Positions 44,673 to 47,935 of a stretch of 64,000 nt of DNA are shown here, piece by piece; position 1 is the first letter of the stretch; every line of letters begins with the position of its first letter. Source of the stretch: Roseospira goensis (GTDB lineage Bacteria > Pseudomonadota > Alphaproteobacteria > Rhodospirillales > Rhodospirillaceae); assembly GCF_014197795.1 (NCBI RefSeq), contig NZ_JACIGI010000001.1, positions 112,213 through 176,212 on the forward strand, read 5' to 3'. Under the pieces are notes generated by a model, which had not been told where the DNA came from, ran no database searches, and saw nothing but the letters and a program-made list of their open reading frames with translations. A program made the position numbers and the translations under genes.

Positions 44673-45986
44673 TCACCGCACCAGCCGGGCCAGCACCGCG
44701 TTCAGGCAGGGACGGCCCGCCGCCGTCGCGCGCAAACGCACACCGTCCCAGGCCACCAGGCCAAGAGCCGTCAGGTCCGCGAGCGCCTCCGGGTCCACCG
44801 TCTCCGGCAGCGGGCGGCCGCACAGCCGTTCGAACCGGGCGGCGTGGACCCCCTCGGTCAGACGCAGGCCCATCAGCAGCAGTTCGACCGCGCGGTCGGC
44901 GGGAGCCAGTCTCTCGCGCGCCTGCACACCGTGACCGTCGCGCTCCACCCGCGCCAGCCAGCCGGCCGGGCCGGCGACGGTGCGGGTGGCGCGCCCGCCC
45001 AGGCGGCCGTGGGCGCCCGGGCCGAGCCCCACGTAGTCGCCGCCGCGCCAGTAGACCAGGTTGTGCCGGCATTCGCCCCCGGGGCGGGCGTGGTTGGAGA
45101 TCTCGTAGGCCGGCAGCCCGGCCGCCGCGGTGGTCTCCTGGGTCACGTCCCACAGGTCGGCGGCGGTGTCCTCGTCCGGCAGCACGAAGGCGCCGTCGCG
45201 GTGGGCGGCGAAGAAGGCCGTGCCCGTCTCGATGGTGAGCTGATAGAGCGACAGGTGCTCGGGCGCGAAGGCCAGCGCGCGGCCCAGCTCGTCGGCCCAG
45301 GCCTCCGGGGTCTGACCGGGGCGGGCGTAGATCAGGTCATAGGAGACGCGGGCGAACGTCGACCGCGCCAGGTCGAGCGCGGCCAGCGCCTCGGCTGCGT
45401 CGTGGCGCCGCCCCAGGAAGCGCAAGGCGGTATCGTCGAGCGCCTGCACGCCGAGCGACAGTCGGCTCACGCCGGCCGCCCGCAGGTCCTGGAATCGGAC
45501 CCGGTCGACGGCGCCCGGGTTGGCCTCCAGCGTGACCTCGATGTCGTCGGCCAGCGGCCACAGCCGCGCCGCCGCCTCCAGCACCGCGGCGACGGTGGCG
45601 GGCGCCATCAGCGAGGGTGTGCCGCCGCCGAAGAATACGCTGGTGAGCGGGCGGCGTGGGGCCGCCGCGGCCAGGGTCTCCAACTCGCGGACGTAGGCGC
45701 GCGCCCAACGGTCCTGGTCCGGGCGGTCGATCATACCGGCCGACGGAAGGGCGGACCTGTCCGTCGGCCGGCCGGCGCGACCGCGCCGGCGCGGCGAAGC
45801 CGCGTATGGCCCTGATCCTGACGCGTCAGGATCAGGGCCGGCCCGTATCACATGGCTGTTGAAGTCGCAGTAGGGGCACTTCGACAGGCACCACGGCCAG
45901 TGCACGTACAGCCCGAAGCCCTCGTCATGCGGGTCGATGGCGGGGTCCGTGGGCGGCACGGTGGTGCAGGCGGGGAGGGCGGTCAT
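44673..45986 (-). CDS. hemW: Radical SAM heme chaperone HemW with an in-frame palindromic insertion
   Basis: The 437-residue protein is HemW (formerly HemN-like), an iron-sulfur radical SAM protein that delivers heme. The cluster motif CLSKCPYC (Cys33, 37, 40) sits in YVHWPWCLSKCPYCDFNSH; GGGTPSLM, SLGVQALDD and the HemN C-terminal domain follow. Residues 50-84 are foreign in composition (Ser/Pro/Arg/Gly) and encoded by a palindromic cassette; the normal sequence resumes with RPDQDRWARAY. The insertion lies just after the cluster loop but keeps the frame and both flanks intact, so the protein may still fold. Start chosen at MTALPACT; the terminator of the upstream pckG separates the two genes. 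Confidence 0.93.
   Translation of the reverse strand: MTALPACTTVPPTDPAIDPHDEGFGLYVHWPWCLSKCPYCDFNSHVIRAGPDPDASGSGPYAASPRRRGRAGRPTDRSALPSAGMIDRPDQDRWARAYVRELETLAAAAPRRPLTSVFFGGGTPSLMAPATVAAVLEAAARLWPLADDIEVTLEANPGAVDRVRFQDLRAAGVSRLSLGVQALDDTALRFLGRRHDAAEALAALDLARSTFARVSYDLIYARPGQTPEAWADELGRALAFAPEHLSLYQLTIETGTAFFAAHRDGAFVLPDEDTAADLWDVTQETTAAAGLPAYEISNHARPGGECRHNLVYWRGGDYVGLGPGAHGRLGGRATRTVAGPAGWLARVERDGHGVQARERLAPADRAVELLLMGLRLTEGVHAARFERLCGRPLPETVDPEALADLTALGLVAWDGVRLRATAAGRPCLNAVLARLVR
45735..45839. repeat. 105-bp in-frame palindromic cassette inside hemW
   Basis: Three parts are seen. (1) 45808-45839 is a perfect 32-bp palindrome, half-site GGCCCTGATCCTGACG. (2) 45736-45747 and 45760-45771 are 12-bp arms CCGGCCGACGGA/TCCGTCGGCCGG. 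(3) Between them, GCCGGCGCG (45771-45779) pairs with CGCGCCGGC (45782-45790) and CGCGGC (45790-45795) with GCCGCG (45799-45804). The unit is exactly 35 codons. Flanks ATACCGGCC and GGCCCGTAT form near-inverted ends. This fits a protein-tolerated mobile palindrome like the Rickettsia RPE. Confidence 0.85.
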
Positions 45987-46017
45987 CGGGACCCCGGGCC
46001 AGGGCGGATGGCGGCAG

Positions 46018-46051
46018 AAAAACCCCCGCCGGGCGGGCGGCCCGGCGGGGG
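46018..46051 (-). terminator. Rho-independent terminator of pckG
   Basis: On the minus strand a perfect 11-bp GC stem (CCCCCGCCGGG arms at 46023-46033 and 46041-46051, loop of seven) is followed by five T residues. It lies 49 bp after the pckG stop and before hemW. A second stem-loop, 46066-46089, lies between it and the stop codon. Confidence 0.88.
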
Positions 46052-46099
46052 ACAGCGATGCGGGCGCGGGCCGCGCCGTCGCGGCCCGCGGGGGACGGC

Positions 46100-47935
46100 T
46101 TACGCCGACTTGGGCAGTTCCCACACCTCCGGGGCCTGCTCCAGCTCGGCCATCATGAGGTCGCGCATGGCCGTGATCTCCTTCGGCACGCGATCGCCGA
46201 ACTTGTCGAACAGGTCGGCCTGGGTCTGCACCTCGCGCAGCGCCTTGTCCTTCTCGACGCTCATGATGCGGTTGTACAGCGCCTTGTCGAACGGCAGGCC
46301 GTTCCAGTTGATATCGGTGTAGGACGGTACGTTGCCCAGCGGGCTCTCGACCGCGTGGGCCTCACCGCGCACCCGGTTCACGATCCATTCCAGGGCCCGC
46401 ATGTTGTCGCCGAAGCCGGGCCAGATGAACTTGCCGTTGTCGTCCTTGCGGAACCAGTTGACGCGGTAGATGTGCGGCAGGCTGCCGGCCAGGCGGTGGC
46501 CCAGATCCAGCCAATGCTTCCAGTAGTCGGCCATGTTGTAGCCGCAGAACGGCAGCATGGCGAACGGATCCCGGCGCAGGTCGCCGGGCTTGCCCTCGGC
46601 GGCGGCGGTCAGTTCCGAGCCCATGGTCGCGGCCAGGTAGACACCGTGGGTCCAGTCCTTGGCTTCGAACACCAGCGGGAAGTTGGAGGCGACCCGGCCG
46701 CCGAACAGGAAGGCATCGACCGGCACGCCCGCGGGGTCCTCCCAGCGTTCATCCACCGACGGGCACTGGCCCAGCGGTGCGGTGAAGCGGGCGTTCGGGT
46801 GCGCCGCCACGCGGCCGCAATCCGGCGTCCAGTCCTGGCCCTTCCAGTCGATCAGGTGGGCCGGCGGCGCGTCGGTCATGCCTTCCCACCAGACGTCGCC
46901 GTCATCGGTCATGGCCACGTTGGTGAAGATGCAGTTCCCCCGAAGCGAGAGCATCGCGTTCGGGTTCGACTTCATCGAGGTCCCGGGCGCCACGCCGAAG
47001 AAGCCGTATTCCGGGTTGATGGCCCGTAGCGTGCCGTCCGGTGCCGGCTTGATCCAGGCGATGTCGTCGCCAACGGTGGTGACCTCCCAGCCCTCGTAGC
47101 CCTCGGGCGGGATCAGCATGGCGAAGTTGGTCTTGCCGCAGGCGCTGGGGAAGGCGCCGCAGACATAGGACTTGCGGCCGTCCGGGCTCTTGACCCCCAG
47201 GATCAGCATGTGTTCGGCCAGCCACCCTTCGTCGCGGGCCTTCACCGAGGCGATGCGCAGCGCGAAGCACTTCTTGCCCAGCAGGGCGTTGCCGCCGTAG
47301 CCGGAGCCGAAGGACCAGATCTCGCGCGTCTCCGGGTAGTGCACGATGTACTTGTTGTCGGCGTTGCACGGCCAGGGCACGTCCTTCTGGCCGTCGGTCA
47401 GCGGCATGCCGACCGAGTGGACGCAGGGCACGAACTCGCCGTCGTCGCCCAGGACGTCCAGCGCCGCCTGGCCCATGCGCGTCATGATGCGCATGTTGGT
47501 GACCACGTAGGCGGAATCGGAGATCTCCACGCCGATCTCGGAGATGTCCGAGCCCAGCGGCCCCATCGAGAACGGAATCACGTACATGGTGCGGCCGCGC
47601 ATGCAGCCGTCGAACAGGCCGTTCAGGGTGGCCCGCATCTCCTTGGGGTCGACCCAATTGTTGGTCGGCCCGGCGTCGTCCGGATTCTCGGAGCAGATGA
47701 AGGTGCGGTTCTCGACCCGGGCCACGTCGGCGGGGTCGGAGCGACACAGAAAACTGTTGGGCCGTTTCTCCGGGTTCAGGCGGATGTAGGACCCGCCCTG
47801 CACCAGCAGCTCGCACAGGCGGTCGTATTCCTCCTGACTGCCGTCGCACCATTCGATGCGGTCCGGCTTGGTCAGGGCGGCGATTTCATCCACCCACGCC
47901 AGCAGTCTGGCATGCTTGGTCGGTGCTTCGCTCAT
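46100..47935 (-). CDS. pckG: Phosphoenolpyruvate carboxykinase (GTP)
   Basis: The 611-residue enzyme converts oxaloacetate and GTP to PEP, CO2 and GDP at the entrance to gluconeogenesis. FPSACGKTN is the GTP-type P-loop with its reactive Cys; [21 protein letters not shown] (quoted in parts), the metal/substrate residues in [10 protein letters not shown] and the GTP-site [13 protein letters not shown] are all present. The ATG complementary to 47933-47935 follows GGGAGGG. Most proteobacteria use the ATP enzyme, so the GTP type is a useful lineage marker. A strong terminator follows. Confidence 0.96.

Follow-up and report, generated by a model that had tools for sequence, protein, structure and literature searches.

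Short palindromic or MITE elements inserted in frame have been reported in Rickettsia, in enterobacteria and in Coxiella, according to passages of PMC10969869, PMC2229807, and PMC3733652. In R. conorii, 44 insertions of the Rickettsia palindromic element (RPE) were counted, nearly half of which lie in ORFs (Ogata 2000, 2002, as told in parts of PMC10969869 and PMC2229807), and the target duplication of the RPE is marked "?" in a table given in the available part of PMC2229807. In the open-access literature, which was searched by titles and the beginnings of abstracts, in part among the best-ranked matches, nothing was found on the repeats of Roseospira or on the Azospirillum form of this element, and no paper pairing "Roseospira" with "palindromic" was retrieved. 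This is consistent with the statement made in the original prediction that no such element was known in this group of bacteria.

The window analyzed here, a stretch of 64,000 nucleotides belonging to a contig of Roseospira goensis, carries on the minus strand the hemW gene encoding the radical SAM heme chaperone (44673..45986), interrupted in frame. The genome is a draft (4.18 Mb in 81 contigs), and one genome per species was compared. The ORF was identified as HemW with TIGR00539 (269 bits vs. a cut-off of 205); its 437-aa form starts from an ATG at 45986, which is a chosen, predicted start, and the ORF of 483 aa extends back to a GTG at 46124. The insertion amounts to 117 bp, or 39 codons (residues 94-132 of the 483-aa ORF), instead of the 105 bp and 35 codons initially proposed, from which the ends of the element had been left out. 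The 39 extra residues, IRAGPDPDASGSGPYAASPRRRGRAGRPTDRSALPSAGM, which are rich in Ser, Pro, Arg, and Gly, are located between His-Val and Ile-Asp, just past the C-X3-C-X2-C motif CLSKCPYCDFNSHV. Since the frame used contains no stop codon and the length is 117 bp, hemW is translatable through the element.

The HemW query was matched in all the 61 genomes searched, only weakly in those of G009 and G051, and no second HemW match of comparable strength was present in the host genome among the matches listed (four of six). The segment was expected to be absent from related HemW proteins, and this was found to be the case in five of the six congeners, where eight residues form the loop from NSHV to the next Trp; the sixth, G006, carries a different insert of 34 codons at the same spot. 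Among the 29 HemW sequences viewed in the alignment, 27 have no insert, the exceptions being those of the host strain and G006. With respect to HemN (1olt), the insert falls between chain residues 78 and 83, just past the cluster-binding loop, based on a phmmer alignment whose first segment has a low score (5.2 bits). The HemW loop seems to be tolerant of insertion at this point. A search of plasmids with HemW yielded only HemW proteins with less than 60% identity, and a scan of viral contigs with the neighboring PckA protein gave two loci, which were of no use.

The borders of the element were obtained by comparison with the uninterrupted hemW of the congeners. On the gene strand, the empty site reads GTGATCGAC in L037 and L039, and the filled site reads GTGA-TACGGG...CCGGTA-TGATCGAC in the window, with a 3-bp direct duplication, TGA. 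The element is thus a 114-bp sequence (45734..45847) flanked by two copies of the target, which are TCA on the plus strand (45731..45733 and 45848..45850), and as the 114 bp of the element and the 3 bp of the duplication add up to 117 bp, the reading frame is kept. Its termini are TACYGG...CCRGTA, or TACYGGCC...GGCCRGTA when two more bases are given at each end. The in-frame insertion of a mobile-like palindromic element, as originally predicted, was therefore confirmed by the empty site in relatives, by the TCA duplication, and by the copies present elsewhere.

The element contains four stems in the order H1-H2-H3-H4 on the plus strand, and is read by hemW on the minus strand. H1 (45736..45771) consists of CCGGCCGACGGA and TCCGTCGGCCGG separated by a loop of 12 bases, H2 (45772..45789) of CCGGCGCG and CGCGCCGG, and H3 (45790..45804) of CGCGGC gaa GCCGCG; H4 (45808..45839) is a perfect 32-bp palindrome with the core GATCCTGACNNGTCAGGATC, which is common to the Azospirillum copies. 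The perfect palindrome and three further perfect stems noted at the outset are therefore all present. In an alignment of 16 copies, pairs changed on both sides were observed at 6 of the 12 pairs of H1, 1 of the 8 pairs of H2, 1 of the 6 pairs of H3, and 5 of the 15 pairs of H4. These 13 pairs and the 57 cells involved exceed the means of 9.1 and 19.3 obtained with shuffled data, neither value being reached in any of 500 shuffles, and 97.4% of the cells pair, although the stem structure was drawn from the same 16 copies as those tested, which favors the structure. In a control where the partner was slid by 1-3 columns, only 1-6 double-changed cells were left; one of the five covariation measures, the number of further pair types, showed no excess (23 vs. 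23.4 in the shuffles). The four stems are real, and the structure is kept among the copies. Their upkeep may involve selection on the hairpins or copying between the arms, and the data fit either process. The predicted RNA of the gene strand between 45731 and 45850 has a folding energy of -85.4 kcal/mol (z -6.8), and none of 200 shuffles was as good. The hemW copy scored 119.4 bits (E 5.6e-21) with the covariance model R1, of which it is one of the 16 seeds. No match of the hemW region with Rfam was obtained at the gathering score, and three sub-threshold matches found on scanning 45000-47000 were taken as chance.

The element is not restricted to hemW. Near-full-length copies elsewhere in the 4.18 Mb of the host genome are 93% and 91% identical to it, partial copies are numerous, and 76 BLAST matches were obtained at E<=10, a figure which includes reverse-strand self-matches and several pieces of single copies. 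The 32-bp palindrome occurs with up to three mismatches at four places in this genome, hemW included, which agrees with the prediction that it would be multicopy. With the covariance model built on the 16 copies, at least 39 matches were detected in the host genome at E<=0.01, with 27 distinct places among the matches listed, and at least 242 across all the seven genomes of the genus; 150 candidates were scored per genome, so that these tallies may leave out some copies, and they may include one copy more than once where it was also read on the opposite strand. G005 accounts for 108 of these matches, as compared with 7 to 39 in each of the other six genomes, which perhaps reflects a recent expansion. 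The positions of the G005 hits coincide with those on contigs of Roseospira navarrensis.

When an order-wide sample of 150 genomes was examined under stricter filtering, a match was obtained in 3, all three belonging to this genus (1 of 79 genera), and the core pattern was found in 6 of the 74 genomes of the family, all six from this genus. In a named collection, the core pattern was present in 32 stretches: 14 in Roseospira navarrensis, 4 in R. visakhapatnamensis, Rhodospira trueperi, and metagenome bins of Rhodospira taken together, 6 in Azospirillum-type genomes, and 8 in unrelated bacteria. Around three of these last eight hits, which were inspected (L092, L104, and L113), there was no such element. 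Based on the spread of the core pattern over Roseospira and Rhodospira, the family was assigned to the Roseospira/Rhodospira group. Model matches were also obtained in three of four Azospirillum-type genomes (five matches in total). The Azospirillum-type copies (L274-L278, L084, L088, L097, and L108) are divergent and show the same stem order and the same H4 core; their ends mostly resemble TACCRGCGG...CCGCTGGTA, with TTA, TCA, or TAA outside.

Several variants were observed along with the 114- to 115-bp form. A second, longer type of about 180 bp has stems H1-H3 and the TACCG..CGGTA ends in common with the element, and a different right half comprising a GCGCCCC..GGGGCGC hairpin, an A-run, and CAAAGACTC; it is present in G005, G003, and G002 (L137, L155, L156, L163, L210, L218, L220, and L229, where the element runs from position 1501, or to its far end on the minus strand). 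In L007, L009, L011, L012, L014, L016, and L028, an extra hairpin module, CTGGCATCGC...GCGATGCCAG, lies beside H2 and gives elements of about 130-168 bp, so that modules seem to be exchanged. Two minimal copies with TACYGG...CCRGTA ends were also noted, one reduced to a single H1 hairpin of 40 bp (L024:1502-1541) and the other, of 62 bp, having neither H3 nor H4 (L017, about 741-802).

The trinucleotide TNA was found directly outside 47 of the 58 ends having an exact TACYRS tip, and at each of 27 offsets further out its frequency was 0 to 7%. In the set of 146 distinct copies collected from the seven genomes, both 6-bp tips are recognizable within one mismatch in 27, the remainder being degenerate or different at one or both ends. 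Identical 3-bp flanks, all of them TNA, occur in 17 of these 27 two-ended copies (shuffled mean 7.5, maximum 14 in 5000), and the other 10 have no identical flanks; TNA is present on both sides of 31 of the 146 copies, with identical triplets in 25 of the 31. Taken together with the empty site of hemW, these flank statistics are best read as a TNA target duplication of 3 bp, which makes the element MITE-like. The MITE features found here are a short core (114-115 bp), no transposase gene, many copies, terminal inverted repeats, and a target duplication. The hemW segment thus very probably belongs to a MITE-like, non-autonomous family of palindromic transposable elements from Roseospira/Rhodospira, whose copies would be mobilized by a transposase that recognizes their termini in trans. 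In the search for an autonomous partner, exact TNATACYRGCC sites of the host genome and G005, paired by eye, gave no matching termini at transposon distance, nor did the 1.07 Mb of fetched sequence, apart from one pair in an unrelated Chitinophaga locus. Transposases of the PF01609 family were detected in six of the seven genomes of the genus, G005, the genome with the most copies, having none; PF07592 was found in none of the seven, and the control genomes gave no match either.

The second hemW insert, that of G006, comes from an assembly which is 88% complete and consists of 750 contigs. It comprises 34 GC-rich codons (L040:2568-2666), and the covariance model matched the whole of it, with the element oriented as in the host, at 33.2 bits (E 1.1e-4; composition bias, 20.6 bits), the best unrelated match in the same search scoring 14.9. 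Local alignment with a copy from G005 gave 34 identities over 39 columns and a score of 53, which exceeds those of the shuffled sequences (mean 35, maximum 50, n=200) and was not reached by any of 390 control windows (maximum 45), which are less GC-rich than the insert; the best-scoring copies were those of other genomes of the genus, not of G006 itself. The folding energy of this insert is ordinary (z -0.04), which a decayed copy of high GC content might well show. The insert of G006 is probably a decayed copy of the element, judging from these similarities.

The two hemW inserts may be independent or may have a common origin. If they stem from a single ancestral insertion, which was later lost in G001-G005, their identical position and the identical orientation of the element are both accounted for. 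In the HemW tree, which is based on one gene and 14 rows, G006 groups with G001 (100/100) and the host with G004 and G005 (80/82), and since these nearest partners, G001, G004, and G005, all lack the insert, a single ancestral insertion would demand several precise losses; in addition, the frames in which the element is read in the host and in G006 appear by eye to be different, which also argues against a common origin, and we regard the latter as unlikely. Two independent insertions into the same tolerant loop of HemW are the simpler reading and probably the correct one. In the part of PMC3733652 available, different REPs are reported at about the same recB site in two Xanthomonas species, an earlier case of a site being hit more than once.

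The gene context of the 146 copies was established not from annotation but from a codon-usage score, for which HemW and PckA genes served as the training set. Codon models trained on the longest or the best-scoring ORFs of the window were discarded, the second having chosen the strand that does not carry hemW and pckA. A coding frame running through the element with coding sequence on both flanks was found in only 1 of the 146 copies, that of hemW; this test misses gene-breaking and frame-shifting insertions, which were scanned only by eye in the flank scores. Because gene calling places the start of hemW beyond the insert, its class of copies inside a gene, in which none was found, is blind even to the hemW case. 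L149, L161, and L204, which were considered as genic copies, proved on inspection to lie outside genes. With the hemW copy counted, 85 copies lie between tandem genes, 44 between convergent, and 8 between divergent ones, 9 being unclassed. By the same score, coding sequence makes up about 89% of the window (56.9 of 64 kb), and yet only 1 of the 146 copies is genic, so that genic insertions must have been either purged by selection or never made. The near-exclusively intergenic location of the copies is probably the outcome of selection.

In 41 of the 146 copies, the element starts immediately after a stop codon (25 TGA, 13 TAA, and 3 TAG, the last of which do not fit TNA), and the triplet recurs on the far side of the element in only 5 of these 41. 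Insertion at a TGA or TAA stop is harmless because the duplication restores the stop. TNA sites which are stop codons were used by 32 of 87 usable copies, as compared with 20.0 expected from random TNA sites in the same spacers (0.0004 by simulation, a 1.6-fold excess), and by 1 of 14 copies in the host genome. The excess is modest, and most of it may result from the TNA rule and selection rather than from any active preference.

This distribution, mostly between tandem or convergent genes and often right after a stop codon, along with the strong covarying hairpins, would also suit a REP/RAYT-type hairpin element carried by an HUH tyrosine transposase, or a structural RNA or terminator spreading by recombination, in either case with no DDE transposase. 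A direct 3-bp TNA duplication is present here, and HUH elements are not known to make such duplications. No Rfam match in the hemW region reaches the gathering score, and the TACYGG ends bear neither the GTAG nor the CGTC tags of the REP families, as these are presented in the part of PMC3733652 available. This type of origin is quite unlikely on these grounds.

Comparison with the RPE was part of the original prediction, where the hemW segment was said to behave like one of these elements. This holds for the hemW insertion itself and fails for the family. A system of the RPE type, specialized in coding genes or widely tolerated in them and giving a conserved peptide, would be consistent with a palindromic element placed in frame in a conserved enzyme, with a length near that of the RPE (105-146 bp, according to a part of PMC2229807), and with the probable second case in the hemW of G006. 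The fact that only 1 of the 146 copies has a coding frame running through it, the apparently different frame in G006 (by eye), which would leave no conserved peptide, and the target duplications and TACYGG ends, which are traits of MITEs, make a system of this kind very unlikely. In a frame test on 20 copies, four of the five host-genome copies tested were 114 bp long, a length which with the 3-bp duplication gives an insertion that is a multiple of three, and of the 12 ways of combining frame, strand, and target, 6, 6, 6, and 5 were open in these four; a frameshift results from the seven 115-bp copies of G005, in which 1 of the 12 was open. In all, 28 of the 240 combinations would be tolerated in the 20 copies.

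That the segment might be a native, ancestral loop of HemW, as the extra residues present at the same place in G006 might suggest, has next to no probability. For this strain, the empty sites and the copies dispersed over the genome disprove such an origin, given that five of six congeners and 27 of the 29 HemW sequences viewed have no insert, that copies with 91-93% DNA identity occur elsewhere in the host genome, and that the target is duplicated.

The mobile-element reading can be put in the form of a sequence of events. The element would insert at a TNA trinucleotide, which is duplicated; in an ancestor of the strain, it would have entered hemW at GTGATCGAC, just past the CX3CX2C motif, and hemW would now be translated through it, gaining a 39-residue loop rich in Ser, Pro, Arg, and Gly, which may be unstructured and roughly neutral, the interrupted HemW presumably being still functional. 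Elsewhere in the genome, TGA and TAA stop codons would serve as safe sites which are restored by the duplication. To the more specific proposal that a lineage-specific, four-stem, TNA-inserting family rebuilds TGA and TAA stops and has entered the same HemW loop independently in two species and in different frames, we give even chances. If this is true, the loop beside the radical-SAM cluster would be a natural hotspot for the uptake of mobile DNA as protein. The locus provides a case outside Rickettsia of a mobile palindrome built into a conserved enzyme, and since the site is empty in sister species, HemW can be compared with and without the insert. In addition, recognizable ends, a target rule, and many copies make the movement of transposase-less elements directly testable, and insertion at stop codons would constitute a simple and harmless route of spread in gene-dense genomes.

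We therefore filed the element as a new family of MITEs, which is RPE-like in hemW alone and does not belong to the RPEs by the test of frequent coding insertion. The mycobacterial MIRU, in work attributed to Supply et al. in 1997, reportedly inserts at a TGA stop codon, and the stop is said to be regenerated; MIRUs resemble the present element in this respect and differ from it in that they are not known to be palindromic. The likeness to the RPE lies in the palindromic structure, the length of about 100-150 bp, and the in-frame position in a conserved enzyme (available parts of PMC10969869 and PMC2229807). The difference, as far as the RPE descriptions in those parts go, is that RPEs are often found in ORFs, as against 1 of 146 copies here, where TNA is duplicated. 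The element shares with the MITEs RUP, Correia/NEMIS, and ERIC, as treated in the accessible sections of PMC2229807, a short length, terminal inverted repeats, a target duplication, and a mostly intergenic location, and it differs from them by its four separate covarying stems, its TNA target, and in having no known autonomous partner. In the case of the Correia elements, the same source in part describes two length classes, 107 bp and 155 bp, one being open-framed and gene-entering and the other not, which is comparable to the 114- and 115-bp copies described here. The REP families with GTAG/CGTC tags similarly have palindromes near stop codons, whereas the present element is longer, composite, and devoid of these tags, and has a target duplication (PMC3733652, in part). 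The CcrM-associated CIR of Caulobacter are, like it, structured intergenic repeats of alphaproteobacteria; according to the part of PMC2229807 concerned, they differ in containing GANTC and in being closed by stops in each of the six frames; none was found inside a gene, and their target duplication is marked "?".
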